Of a stretch of 46,548 nucleotides of DNA, positions 6,233 to 36,022 are shown in pieces. The DNA is from Wenzhouxiangella sp. XN79A (lineage in GTDB: Bacteria; Pseudomonadota; Gammaproteobacteria; Xanthomonadales; Wenzhouxiangellaceae), in assembly GCF_012272825.1 (NCBI RefSeq), contig NZ_JAAWWS010000151.1, positions 1-46,548 of the forward strand, in the 5' to 3' direction. The position numbers and the translations under genes were made by a program. Numbering within the stretch: the stretch's first letter is position 1; each line of letters opens with the position of its first letter. Below the pieces are notes generated by a model. It saw only the letters and a list, made by a program, of their open reading frames with translations, was not told where the DNA came from and made no database searches.

Positions 6233-6246
6233 TTGACGCCCATCAA
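6233..6246 (+). promoter_or_regulatory. FNR/Anr box upstream of ccoH
   Basis: TTGACGCCCATCAA, 9 of 10 consensus positions. With the centre at -41.5 the start site would be about 6281, and the matching -10 window 6269-6274 reads GAAGAT. ccoH starts at 6298, giving a short leader. This suggests the ccoHIS genes have an oxygen-controlled promoter separate from ccoNOQP. Confidence 0.75.
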
Positions 6247-6297: not shown

Positions 6298-6801
6298 ATG
6301 CAGCGCACCGATTCCACCCCCTGGTACAAGCAGTTCTGGCCCTGGTTCATTCTCGCGATCCTGGGCTGGGGCGTGGTGTCGGCGACCACCACGCTGGTCT
6401 TCGCGGTGCTCAATCCGCCGCAGATGATGACCGGCGACTACGCCAGGCTCGGCAAGGCGCTGGTCGACACCCACGTCCGCTTCGACCGGGCCGAAGCGCT
6501 GGGGCTGGCCGGCCGCCTGGCGCTGAGCGGCGACGAGCTGCGGCTGGACCTGCAGTCGGTCGAGGCCGATGCGCTGGCCGATACCGTCCTGCTGCTGGCC
6601 CAGCACCCGACCGACGCGTCGCGTGATCGCCAGCTGATGCTGATCCGCACGGCCGACGGGCGCTATGCCGGCCGGGTCGAGTCCCTGCCGCCGCGTGGCC
6701 GGATGATCGTGTCCGACCTGGAGCAGAGCTGGTGGATCTCGTCGGCCTATGAGCTCGAGGACGGCGTGGTGGACATCCAGCTCGTCCCGGAACATCTCTG
6801 A
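6298..6801 (+). CDS. ccoH: FixH/CcoH family cbb3 oxidase assembly protein
   Basis: 167 residues. The N-terminus WYKQFWPWFILAILGWGVVS contains the single membrane anchor (about 12-37), the signature of FixH, followed by a periplasmic immunoglobulin-like domain ending in DIQLVP. FixH/CcoH interacts with CcoN and stabilises the assembly intermediate. GGAG at 6288-6291 precedes the ATG. It lies 69 bp before ccoI and directly after an FNR box. Confidence 0.92.
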   Translation: MQRTDSTPWYKQFWPWFILAILGWGVVSATTTLVFAVLNPPQMMTGDYARLGKALVDTHVRFDRAEALGLAGRLALSGDELRLDLQSVEADALADTVLLLAQHPTDASRDRQLMLIRTADGRYAGRVESLPPRGRMIVSDLEQSWWISSAYELEDGVVDIQLVPEHL

Positions 6802-10255: not shown

Positions 10256-10269
10256 TTGATTGCGGTCAA
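10256..10269 (+). promoter_or_regulatory. FNR/Anr box upstream of hemN
   Basis: TTGATTGCGGTCAA matches the FNR consensus at 9 of 10 positions. The centre at 10262.5 predicts a start near 10304 and a -10 at 10292-10297, where TAGACT is present. hemN begins at 10340. hemN is a standard FNR/Anr target. Confidence 0.85.
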
Positions 10270-22367: not shown

Positions 22368-22455
22368 TGGGCTACGCTCCTTGAGCGGGTTGAGAAGACG
22401 GGTGTAGTGTGCGGAGTCTGAAGGGTCGAGCTATTGATGGGTGTCAAACCACCCT

Positions 22456-22469
22456 TTGATCCCGATCAA
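22456..22469 (-). promoter_or_regulatory. consensus FNR/Anr box in the ompW-photolyase gap
   Basis: TTGATCCCGATCAA matches all 10 defined positions of the FNR consensus and extends to a 16-bp palindrome (22455-22470). Measured for ompW, a class II start would be near 22421 with a -10 at 22433-22428 reading TAGCTC on the minus strand. For the divergent photolyase gene the corresponding -10 window is GC-rich. A second, imperfect box TTGACGCCGATCGA lies at 22479-22492. I assign the exact box to ompW; an effect on the photolyase gene is possible. Confidence 0.85.
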
Positions 22470-22540
22470 ATTGCCGTATTGACGCCGATCGAACCGGCCA
22501 TCGGCGACACTTGCAGACCTTTCGGAGGAATCCCGATCGC

Positions 22541-32376: not shown

Positions 32377-33048
32377 TCAGCCCCGCAGTCGCTGGACCAC
32401 GGCCGCCGCGGCCGCGGCCAGCAGCAGCACCACGCCCCACAGCGGAATCAGGTAGATCAGCGCAAGGCCCGGGACCAGCAGCGCCAGCGACAGCGCGAGC
32501 AGGTCATCGCGGCGCGCCTGGACCAGGTCGGCGCGCTGGCCGAAGCTGATCAGCGCGTGGTCGAGACTCAGCTTGCCGCCGCCCATGAAGACCAGCGGCA
32601 GCAGCATGGCCAGGAACAGCATCGGGATGCGGAAGTTGCCGCGGAACTCGCCGTCCTCCATGACCCGCGAGACCGAATAGCCTTCCCAGAGCTGGCCGAG
32701 GCCGGACCAGGATTCCGGCCAGTGGGTGGAGACGATCGCGACGGTCGTCACCATGACCAGCGAAAACGCCGCGAAGCGGGTGAACAGGCCGAGCATCAGC
32801 GCGATCGCGGCCAGGATCTCGGTCCAGGTCACCATCGCCCAGTTGACGCCGGCCGGCAGCCAGTCGAACGGCAGCGGAAAGCCCTTGTTGGCGAACCAGC
32901 CCGGCACGCCGTCGGCGCCGGCCTTGCCGAGTCCGGCCTTCAGGAATTCATGGCCCAGCAGCAGGCGCAGGCCGAGCGGGGCGATCCAGTCGCCGGCCGA
33001 GCGCAGGCGGTCGGTGAGGCGGTCGTAGGCTTCGATCAATGCAGTCAT
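32377..33048 (-). CDS. DoxX family membrane protein, last gene of the RiPP operon
   Basis: 223 residues with about five membrane segments. GLRLLLGHEFLKAGLGK (about 26-42) is the DoxX start, and WTEILAAIALMLGLFTRFAA the second conserved block. DoxX proteins regularly accompany DUF692/DUF2063 RiPP pairs, and the one in Hvf-type clusters is thought to help copper-peptide maturation or membrane transfer. It lies 53 bp after hvfC in the same direction, so it probably belongs to the operon starting at hvfA. The C-terminal half has an extra two-helix region compared with short DoxX proteins. Confidence 0.85.
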   Translation of the reverse strand: MTALIEAYDRLTDRLRSAGDWIAPLGLRLLLGHEFLKAGLGKAGADGVPGWFANKGFPLPFDWLPAGVNWAMVTWTEILAAIALMLGLFTRFAAFSLVMVTTVAIVSTHWPESWSGLGQLWEGYSVSRVMEDGEFRGNFRIPMLFLAMLLPLVFMGGGKLSLDHALISFGQRADLVQARRDDLLALSLALLVPGLALIYLIPLWGVVLLLAAAAAAVVQRLRG

Positions 33049-33101
33049 CTTCGGGCTCCGGTTGAATCCAGTGTCTGATGGCCGGAGTTCGCCCGTGCCC
33101 G

Positions 33102-33863
33102 TCAGTCGGGGGCGGTGCCGAGGATCAGCTCGCGTGTCTGCAGGTCGTCGAGCAGGGTCCGGCCGTGGTCGATCAGCGTCGCCGGGTCGGCATGGTCCAG
33201 CTCCCCGGCGATACGTTCCAGTGCCATTCGACCGGTGCCCGAGGCATCTTCTTTCAGAATCTCGATCAGGCGGCCGGTGACGGCGTTGATCTGCAGTCGC
33301 GCGAGGCGATCGTCGCGGGTCCGCCAGATCGCCAGCACGGTGGCGGCCGGCTCGGGCGCGGCCCGGTCGGCCCGGATCGCGTGGACCGGCCAGCGGTAGG
33401 CGGCCAGCGCGAGCGTGGGGTTCAGCCGGGGTCGGCCCTCGACCGGATCGCCGTGCGGGTCGGCCTCGATCTCGGCCGGGTCGTGCTCGTCGTTGCGCAC
33501 GGTGGTGTTCAGGAACTGCCAGTGGGCCAGCTCGGCCAGCCACGGCCACTCGGGGTGGCGCTCCGGCTGCTCGGCCAGGAAGCGGACGAACTCGCGGCCG
33601 ATCTCGGGAAACAGCGGCGTGGTCGCGCGGTGCTCGGCGAGAAACGCGCCGATCAGCTCGTTCCAGCGCGGGTCGGGCACGATTCGCCGGACCACGGTGA
33701 AGTTCTTCGAAAACAGGCTCGAGAGGTTGTTGAAGAACAGCCGGCGGTAGATCGCCAGCCGTCGCTCCTCGACGCCGTCCGGCGCCGGGTTCGAGGCCGG
33801 GTCTCGAATGTGGTCGGCAAAGCGCTTCTGCAGCGCCGCCAGCCGCTCAGGAGGCCCGGACAT
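33102..33863 (-). CDS. hvfC: HvfC/BufC-like RiPP maturation partner (DUF2063)
   Basis: 253 residues. The N-terminal DUF2063 region is recognisable from [23 protein letters not shown] (about 36-58), followed by a second domain with [10 protein letters not shown] and [14 protein letters not shown]. In characterised MNIO clusters this protein binds the precursor peptide and works with the DUF692 enzyme. No membrane segment. Its start overlaps the end of hvfB by 17 bp, so the two are translationally linked, consistent with a maturase-partner complex. Confidence 0.9.
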
Positions 33864-34701
33864 GCCGCTCGGACCGCTCCGGATGCCGGGCCTGCAGGCG
33901 GTGAATGGTCCGCACCTCGTCGAGCAGCTGCTCCACGGCCGGGAAGTTGAAGTCGCGCTCCAGCAGCGTCGGCACCGGGCCGAGTTTCTGGTAGGCGGCG
34001 TCGAGCAGGTCCCAGACCGGGTCGATGACGTCGGCGCCGTGGGTGTCGACGATCAGGTCTTCGGCCTCGTTGTGGTGGCCGGCGACGTGGATGTAGGCCA
34101 CCCGATCGGCCGGCAGGCCGTCGAGGAAGGCCCGGGCGTCGTAGCGGTGATTGACGCTGTTGACGTGGATGTTGTTGACGTCGAGCAGCAGGTGGCAGTC
34201 GGCGCGTTCGAGCACCGCGTTGATGAATTCGAGTTCGCTCAGTTCGGTGGTCGGCTGGGCATAGTAGGAAATGTTCTCCACCGCGATTTTCCGACCGACC
34301 AGGTCCTGGGTCCGGCGGATGCGCGCGGCGACCCAGTCGACCGCTTCTTCGGTGAACGGGATCGGCATCAGGTCGTACAGGTGGCCGTGCTCGGAGCAGT
34401 AGCTCAGGTGCTCGGAGTACAGCCGGATGTCGTGGGCATCGAGAAAACGCCGCACCCGCTTCAGGAAGGTTTCATCGAGCGGTTCCGGCGCGCCCAGCGA
34501 CAGCGACAGGCCATGGCAGACGAACGGCAGCCGTTCGGTGTAGCGACGAAAGGCCTTGCCGCGCGCGCCGCCGACCCCGATCCAGTTCTCGGGTGCGACT
34601 TCCATGAAGTCGACATCGCTCAGGTCGGCATGCTCCAGCGGGCCCAGCAGGGCCCGCCGCAGCCCGAGTCCCGCGCCCCGGAGGGGTGGTCGGGCACTCA
34701 T
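33847..34701 (-). CDS. hvfB: HvfB/BufB-like MNIO maturase (DUF692)
   Basis: 284 residues, normal for the family. A TIM-barrel multinuclear iron-dependent oxidase that modifies cysteines of a precursor peptide. Ligand-bearing segments are intact: [59 protein letters not shown] and [15 protein letters not shown]. Close relatives turn Cys in EGxCG motifs into oxazolone/thioamide or thiooxazole groups that bind copper. It lies 29 bp after the precursor gene and overlaps hvfC. The exact product chemistry is inference. Confidence 0.93.
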
Positions 34702-34730
34702 GGTTCGTTCGGTTCGGTCCCGCGGGCCGC

Positions 34731-35123
34731 TCAGGCGGCGCCGCAGGAGCCCTCGCCGCAGGAACCTTCACCACAGGCGCCTTCGGCGTCGTCGCCTTCG
34801 CCGCAGGACCCTTCACCGCAGGACCCTTCACCGCAGGAACCTTCCTTGTCGTCACCCTCGCCGCAGGAGCCTTCCCCGCACGAGCCTTCACCACAGGAAC
34901 CTTCCTTGTCGTCGCCTTCGCCTTCGCCTTCACCGCACGAGCCTTCGCCACAGGCGCCTTCCTTGTCGTCGCCGTGGTCGTCGAAGCCGATCTTGCCGGC
35001 CGACAGGGTCGACAGGTCATCGGCCTGGAACGGATTGGCGGTCGAATCGCCGGCGAATGCGCTCAGGGCGAACGAGGCACCGGCGACAGCACCGATGGCG
35101 GTAACGAGTTGCGTCTTCTTCAT
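34731..35123 (-). CDS. hvfA: HvfA-like secreted RiPP precursor with eleven EG[S/A]CG motifs
   Basis: 130 residues. Signal peptide 1-24 (cut after AFA), a linker with [18 protein letters not shown] (residues 30-47) that resembles the HvfA recognition region, then four repeats at 52-70, 71-90, 91-110 and 111-130. Cysteines sit at 58, 63, 77, 82, 87, 97, 102, 107, 117, 122 and 127, each in EGSCG (nine) or EGACG (two). The first repeat has lost its third Cys (EGEGEG). Relatives carry EGKCG motifs and, after modification, bind copper; here Ser or Ala replaces Lys, making the core strongly acidic. First gene of the operon. Confidence 0.92.
34734..34970 (-). repeat. 60-bp tandem repeats encoding the HvfA core
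   Basis: Four in-frame copies; the last three are exactly 60 bp (34913-34854, 34853-34794, 34793-34734) and the first is 57 bp. The second and third copies encode identical 20-residue peptides but differ at about seven positions, all synonymous, so the protein repeat has been kept by selection and is not a very recent duplication. Confidence 0.9.
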
Positions 35124-35179
35124 GATCAGCCTCCAACAGCTTCAGGAAAGGGTCCGGACCTTGCCGAACCCGGAGAACG

Positions 35180-35278
35180 GGCGCATACCGGATGCGCCTG
35201 CCCGAACAGACCGCGGCCGGGGAGGATTCCTTTCACCGGATTCCACCGATGCGATCGAAACGTAAAGGATCGGATCCT
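35180..35278 (-). promoter_or_regulatory. candidate regulatory palindromes upstream of hvfA
   Basis: In the 224-bp gap between nth and hvfA there are two palindromes. GGCGCAT-ACCGG-ATGCGCC at 35180-35198 is a perfect 7-bp inverted repeat 57 bp before the hvfA start. AGGATCGGATCCT at 35266-35278 is an odd-centred 13-bp palindrome. Either might be an operator or leader hairpin of the RiPP operon. I cannot match them to a known regulator, and no sigma or anti-sigma gene is adjacent. No clear -35/-10 pair is seen. Confidence 0.35.
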
Positions 35279-35347
35279 CCACCAACGACGGCCGGCCCCG
35301 GAGCGGGACGCTACTGATAGCACATCTGCATGGCTGCCAGCAAGAAC

Positions 35348-36022
35348 TCAGTCGGCCGCGGCCGGGGCGTCGGGTGTCCCGGGGGTCTTGTTCGTGAAAT
35401 TGCACAGATCGGCGACCGGGCAATGCGGACAGTCGGGCCTGCGCGCCTTGCAGATGTAGCGGCCGTGCAGGATCAGCCAGTGGTGGGCATGCTGCAGGTA
35501 CTCGGCCGGCACCCGCTTCAGCAGCGCCTTCTCGACGGCCAGCGGGGTCCTGCCGGCCGCCAGACCGGTCCGGTTGGCGACCCGGAAGATGTGGGTGTCC
35601 ACGGCCATGGTCGGCTCGCCGAACGCGGTGTTCATGACCACGTTGGCGGTCTTCCTGCCCACTCCGGGCAGCGCTTCCAGCGCGGCCCGCTCGCGCGGGA
35701 CCTCGCCGGCGTAGAGCTCGACCAGCGCCTTGCACGTACGCATGACATTGCGGGCCTTTGAATTGAACAGCCCGATCGTCTTGATGTGCTCCTTGAGGCC
35801 GTCCTCGCCGAGTTCGAGAATGGCCTGCGGCGTGTTGGCGACCGGGAACAGCCGCCGGGTGGCCTTGTTGACGCCCACGTCGGTGGCCTGTGCCGAAAGG
35901 ATCACCGCGATCAGCAGCTCGAAGGTCGATGAATATTCCAGCTCGGTGGTCGGCTCGGGGTCCAGTTCGGCCAGTCGCCGGAAGAACTCGGCACGGTTGT
36001 CGGGGTTCATCGGGCGGGGCAT
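35348..36022 (-). CDS. nth: endonuclease III
   Basis: 224 residues. A DNA glycosylase/AP lyase for oxidised pyrimidines. The helix-hairpin-helix LPGVGRKTANVV carries the catalytic lysine K124, the catalytic aspartate is D142 (AVDTHIFRVANR), and the 4Fe-4S cluster is C191-x6-C198-x2-C201-x5-C207. AAGGAAG lies 8 nt before ATG 36022; an ATG four codons in is the alternative. Last gene of rnfABCDGE-nth, an order shared with E. coli and pseudomonads. The C-terminal tail is slightly longer and Ala/Pro-rich. Confidence 0.97.
   Translation of the reverse strand: MPRPMNPDNRAEFFRRLAELDPEPTTELEYSSTFELLIAVILSAQATDVGVNKATRRLFPVANTPQAILELGEDGLKEHIKTIGLFNSKARNVMRTCKALVELYAGEVPRERAALEALPGVGRKTANVVMNTAFGEPTMAVDTHIFRVANRTGLAAGRTPLAVEKALLKRVPAEYLQHAHHWLILHGRYICKARRPDCPHCPVADLCNFTNKTPGTPDAPAAAD

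Follow-up and report, generated by a model that had tools for sequence, protein, structure and literature searches.

A four-gene HvfABCX operon of Wenzhouxiangella sp. XN79A encodes a repeat precursor in which Ser or Ala stands before every core Cys, in place of the Lys of its described relatives, and most probably yields a thiooxazole-bearing, periplasmic copper-buffering peptide. The operon occupies positions 32377-35123 of the window, the whole stretch of 46,548 nucleotides of contig NZ_JAAWWS010000151.1 that was analysed. The operon type itself is known, having already been described, named and modelled. What is new here is the replacement of Lys, which recurs in most of the sampled operon-bearing Wenzhouxiangellaceae and, judged from the sequences, is a trait of the lineage. 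The features of the operon are as follows.

34731-35123, minus strand: hvfA-like precursor, 130 aa (NF050137 match; 11 EG[S/A]CG motifs)
33847-34701, minus strand: HvfB-family MNIO (DUF692) maturase, 284 aa (NF003818 match, alignments, AlphaFold model)
33102-33863, minus strand: HvfC-family partner (DUF2063 and NGO1945_C), 253 aa (NF050145; 3dee at 1.2e-11)
32377-33048, minus strand: HvfX-family DoxX membrane protein, 223 aa (NF050144; DoxX 52.1 bits)
35124-35347, minus strand: intergenic stretch toward nth, presumed promoter and 5' leader (GGAGG ribosome-binding site at 35130-35134)

An earlier note, made from the letters alone, had described four same-strand genes with short gaps or overlaps, and the spacing bears this out: the precursor and MNIO genes are separated by 29 nt, the MNIO and DUF2063 genes overlap by 17 nt, and 53 nt lie between the DUF2063 and DoxX genes. 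The start of the DoxX gene was set at the ATG at 33048, as the longest open reading frame, from 33549, would enter the DUF2063 gene. Upstream are an endonuclease III-like nth gene (35348-36022) and then FMN-binding-domain and RnfC matches, and the downstream neighbour, on the opposite strand, encodes a TraB/GumN-type protein. The XN79A genome (171 contigs, 99.97 % complete) contains one MNIO-family match and one HvfC match, both within the operon. The best 80 of 521 confirmed loci were taken as the named set, in which near relatives are therefore over-represented. Among these 80, HvfC is located 3' of HvfB in all 76 loci where 1 kb or more is available, and HvfX was found downstream in 38 of the 70 loci with 2 kb of room, by a single-sequence search that may miss some. 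In total 164 loci were read, 155 of them with HvfB; a repeat precursor of at least three motifs adjoins HvfB in 142 of the 155 (duplicates included), giving 96 distinct loci. The 13 HvfB loci without a precursor, some of them at contig ends, were dropped, and a few of the 96 precursors are truncated at contig ends (e.g. L033 and L031).

The eleven EG[S/A]CG motifs reported in the earlier note were confirmed by counting, with nine Ser, two Ala and no Lys before Cys. The repeat region is a 60-bp tandem array (20-residue unit) with acidic spacers between the motifs. The precursor scored 39.2 bits against the HvfA-family repeat model NF050137 (cut-off 19.5) and 19.2 bits against the strict HvfA equivalog NF050188 (cut-off 95), and by these scores is placed in the wider HvfA family, with no claim of orthology to HvfA. 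A chance repeat was ruled out by the NF050137 score, by matches of this model in 39 of 61 genomes (that of XN79A and its relatives), by the HvfB-linked loci counted above and by the 60-bp array. A putative Sec signal peptide was recognised by eye at approximately residues 1-24, with Lys at 2-3, a hydrophobic stretch and A-F-A before GDS. The leader carries NPFQADDL, and an NPF-type stretch is present in 15 of 21 precursors with no Lys before Cys, 26 of 31 with only Lys and 29 of 37 mixed ones (7 of the 96 leaders were too short), which would be consistent with a single type of HvfC recognising Lys-free and Lys-rich precursors alike. The codons before Cys in the window are TCC (7), TCG (2) and GCC (2), and across 27 loci of the family there are 17 kinds, most of them coding for Ser or Ala and others for Lys, Asn, Thr or His; changes of codon spelling that preserve small residues would fit selection on the protein.

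The MNIO protein scored 438.7 bits against NF003818 "HvfB family" (cut-off 360), and fell below the cut-offs of the BufB model (269 bits, cut-off 310) and the MbnB model (44.8 bits, cut-off 325). Its AlphaFold model (pLDDT 88.3) had 3bww as the top PDB match (E 5.1e-25, 42 % identity), followed by TglH and MbnB. The earlier note would have counted its reading as refuted had an alignment shown the DUF692 homologue to lack the iron ligands, and this check is passed: none of H63, H98, E142, D174, N176, N177, H205, D219, H221 and E248 varies among the 96 distinct HvfB sequences (that of the window among them), all ten of these putative metal-site residues align with 3bww, and MbnB 7dz9 aligns with the same residues except N176, where it has Ser (with Asn at N177). 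From alignments that did not include the HvfB sequence itself, HvfB D242 and H244 would be matched by D219 and H221, and its N175 by N176 or N177; H63, H98, E142, D174, H205 and E248 are presumably the remaining site residues, going by the alignments and by the metal site of MbnB. The protein in 3bww is closely related to HvfB and has a diiron site, and the Ala variants of HvfB N175, D242 and H244 are inactive (PMC13419390). Additional MNIO genes occur in two members of the family (G008:C1:44821-45600, G012:C60:234116-234892 and G012:C12:466059-466832); these are below the HvfB cut-off (250-268 bits) and are possibly bufferin-type.

The partner protein passed the NF050145 HvfC model (242.1 bits, cut-off 142) and the DoxX protein the NF050144 HvfX model (110.5 bits, cut-off 80). 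The HvfABC operon with a DoxX partner proposed in the earlier note is thereby upheld, with HvfB, HvfC and HvfX passing NCBIfam cut-offs and the precursor passing the repeat model only; of its label "HvfABC/bufferin-like" the HvfB-type half was retained and the bufferin half, on the BufB score, was not. On these matches the operon is assigned to the described HvfABCX/oxazolin/captophorin class and not to bufferins proper. The bufferins (BufABC) have a related MNIO with a DUF2063 partner, and a signal peptide and a copper role like those predicted here, but membership was rejected on the BufB score and on the lack of a DUF2282 match in the precursor. The oxazolin/HvfABCX system of non-typeable H. 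influenzae likewise has four genes together, a signal peptide (putative in the window precursor), the metal-site residues and repeated five-residue Cys motifs. Its HvfA carries Lys in its AEGKCGEGKCG motifs, which hold six Cys (PMC13419390), whereas the window precursor counts 11 motifs in which each Cys follows Ser or Ala, has acidic spacers and failed the strict model. The fontiphorin (FonABC)/captophorin systems share an MNIO-PME1 cluster and EGxCG repeats, often with DoxX nearby (PMC13097082). FonA is of the Lys-Cys type, the group under which that paper places repeat precursors, in contrast to the window core, in which 0 of 11 motifs have Lys. The Buf_EGKCG/oxazolin family, mostly of Pseudomonadota, also combines a Sec precursor, as predicted here, with MNIO, DUF2063 and DoxX genes, but is described by EGKCG in 17-residue repeats (PMC12452194), compared with the 20-residue unit without Lys in the window. 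The AlphaFold model of the window precursor is disordered and gave no structure (pLDDT 45.8), in particular no beta-helix, a further point of difference from that family.

In the proposed mechanism, the precursor would be synthesised with its Sec signal peptide, HvfC would bind the leader and present the repeats to HvfB, and the mixed-valent iron cluster of HvfB would use O2 to convert the Cys in as many as 11 EG[S/A]CG motifs to 5-thiooxazole. In characterised relatives HvfC engages the leader, HvfB oxidises the repeat Cys and the product binds copper (PMC13419390, PMC13097082). The earlier note had these enzymes turning Cys into copper-binding heterocycles, and that statement is amended here in that 5-thiooxazole is the present assignment of the ring (PMC13097082; PMC13419390). 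The modified peptide would be exported and hold periplasmic copper, its most likely function being to buffer an excess of the metal, and HvfX/DoxX would act as an accessory membrane protein. Export and buffering are predicted from the signal peptide and from work on bufferins, which are reported to enhance growth under copper stress (PMC12452194). With no Lys before Cys and with acidic spacers, the product would be a polyanionic peptide, unlike the EGKCG products.

The same reports on bufferins argue against copper acquisition, in which a released peptide would capture copper and pass it on, the cbb3 oxidase of the window being one possible recipient. Methanobactin, also an MNIO product, does scavenge copper (PMC13419390), and the window contains cbb3 genes, a copper-type P-type ATPase and fnr, but acquisition is an unlikely role for the peptide, as none of the four operon genes matched an uptake receptor or a TonB-dependent transporter and the cbb3 block is 20-28 kb away. 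This block (ccoN at 1019-2515, ccoO, ccoP to 4245, CcoG, the P-type ATPase, HemN and Fnr) lies outside the operon, at distances from approximately 28 kb (ccoNOP) to approximately 20 kb (fnr). The oxidase in the same segment to which the earlier note drew attention is therefore real but too distant to count as evidence for a copper link or for copper supply. A role with another soft metal, or in a wider redox or sulfur stress response in which DoxX would participate, is quite unlikely: nothing in the operon points to another metal and the characterised products of the enzyme group generally bind copper (PMC13097082), even though DoxX genes recur in such clusters and MerC fusions, other metals and oxidative or sulfur stress have been discussed for them (PMC12452194).

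It is very unlikely that, with Lys missing, few or none of the Cys are modified and the peptide is no more than a Cys-rich protein resembling metallothionein. The described EGKCG products do have Lys-Cys, and flanking residues alter FonBC turnover, with Phe or Glu at position 3 (the Lys position) severely impairing processing, but FonBC tolerates Ala, Arg and Thr at this position in vitro (PMC13097082); in section 12 of that paper Ser is not named among the position-3 variants. The maturases of Lys-free lineages keep the metal-site residues and still adjoin the precursor gene. No compensating maturase change tracking Lys loss was seen among the 30 HvfB columns listed, none of which, as a set, is common to the Lys-free lineages outside the main clade; these columns were the most different ones chosen from the main clade, so that a column special to small lineages could be missed. 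D104E was considered as a compensating residue and rejected: it is found in 25 of 26 main-clade rows (one has Ala), but also in the Lys-rich L014, and is absent from other Lys-free lineages. On the simplest view, maturation would not require Lys, the residue having drifted or been selected for reasons at the level of the product.

The Lys-free core that the earlier note singled out as a departure from the EGKCG type is indeed without Lys, but is not peculiar to this locus. In a sample of the class, EGKCG doublets were present in 79 of 369 genomes and doublets with a small residue instead of Lys in 5 of 369, namely that of XN79A and four others. The doublet pattern allows Ala, Ser, Thr, Gly and some further residues but neither Lys nor Asn, a match does not imply a wholly Lys-free core, and reversed-pattern controls gave zero matches in the rows listed. 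Within the Wenzhouxiangellaceae, 30 of the 43 genomes examined carry non-Lys doublets. HvfB was over the cut-off in 32 of the 43, and 30 of these 32 carry a non-Lys doublet; the precursors of the other two (G011 and G018) have Lys or Asn. Outside this family, non-Lys EGxCG doublets were observed in four other families of the class, at L113 (G220), L116 (G197), L115 (G225) and on contigs C34 and C37 of G155. G155 has both Lys-type and Ser-type doublets, G220 has Gly and Ser, and no HvfB was found within the short locus of L115.

Across the 96 distinct loci (window included), 23 cores have no Lys before Cys, 34 only Lys and 39 are mixed. The residue before Cys in the 739 motifs is K in 430, S in 175, A in 81, T in 15, N in 14, Q in 10, R in 5, G in 5 and H in 4. 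By the HvfB tree 30 of the 96 rows belong to the family, and 21 of these 30 (a few cut at contig ends) are without any Lys. The Lys state changes in at least 7 or 8 steps on this tree, depending on the threshold; the tree was built by a fast method and many of its forks are weak (37 of its 93 inner branches are drawn open). Repeated loss of Lys inside the family was rejected as a conclusion, as the tree splits the family rows in two but a single clade was not rejected (p-AU 0.244). In the mixed cores of L028, L064 and L090, inspection by eye showed EGKCG where motifs are paired and [E/D]GSCG where they stand singly, a pattern hinting that position in the array may matter. The repeat type was described around the Lys-Cys motif, and the natural gradation of cores (all-Lys, mixed and no-Lys), served by a maturase whose metal site stays constant, offers a comparison for separating the needs of the enzyme from those of the copper-binding product. 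Motif filters based on EGKCG may undercount Lys-free precursors. A literature search found no experiment on a natural Lys-free precursor, and a search for Wenzhouxiangella with MNIO found nothing. Full-text searches for EGSCG, EGACG and EGNCG gave, among the matches listed, one on-topic paper, PMC12668002, holding only EGACG; this is the preprint of PMC13097082, whose supplementary motif tables may list Ser or Ala motifs, and in the published text EGACG belongs to an engineered FonA variant.

Precursors lacking Lys before Cys have the more acidic spacers (mean net charge per residue -0.48 in 22 no-Lys rows vs 0.015 in 34 all-Lys rows), so the product is expected to be strongly anionic. Spacer charge correlated with the Lys fraction (rho 0.61, 95 rows, one with a spacer of fewer than 5 residues having been dropped), but this association was not upheld with kinship allowed for, because independent changes are few: a phylogeny-controlled test found 4 independent pairs on supported branches, in which the traits rarely differ together (median p 1). 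An adaptive origin of the spacer acidity or of Lys loss is therefore not demonstrated. A Wenzhouxiangella strain described from soda lakes is haloalkaliphilic and proteolytic (PMC7691419), which makes adaptation to salt, pH or proteases an attractive guess for the cause of Lys loss, though a guess and not a finding. Acidity of the maturase as a mark of a salt-adapted cytoplasm was rejected, as the net charge of HvfB does not follow the fraction of Lys (rho -0.17, p 0.11, 96 rows), and resistance to trypsin-like proteases is a weak candidate because Lys remains in the spacers. GC content is weakly related to the Lys fraction (rho -0.31, uncorrected for kinship). The broader proposal of a Lys-free, polyanionic subclass of thiooxazole metallophores in one family, in which Lys would be dispensable for maturation, charge would alter copper affinity, solubility or partners, and the change would be an adaptation to salt, high pH or proteases of the cell itself, is possible but rather doubtful.

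Just upstream of hvfA in the window neither a sigma-70-like nor an FNR-type site was found, the 5' leader matched no Rfam element, the RNA fold of 35124-35260 was not significant (z-score -0.08), and a comparison over all of the family brought out no conserved upstream motif other than the ribosome-binding site. Exact FNR-type boxes occur elsewhere in the window at 979-992, 6233-6246, 10256-10269, 22434-22447 and 22456-22469, shortly upstream of ccoN, the open reading frame at 6298 and hemN, and also between ompW and the open reading frame at 22511. With at most one mismatch, 9 such boxes were observed in the window against 1.29 expected, which makes an FNR regulon with a TTGAYN4RTCAA-type box likely. 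The box TTGAYN4RTCAA lies 56-59 nt upstream of hvfA in 9 of the 90 loci with at least 150 nt upstream (L003, L009, L026, L037, L038, L041, L042, L043 and L146), all of the main HvfB clade of the family, compared with 0.095 loci expected by mononucleotide shuffling and with 1 match in 517 kb elsewhere in the loci. In these loci the box stands just after a TGCTAG element that is -10-like by eye, a position suggestive of repression when oxygen is absent; such control would fit a maturase that uses O2.
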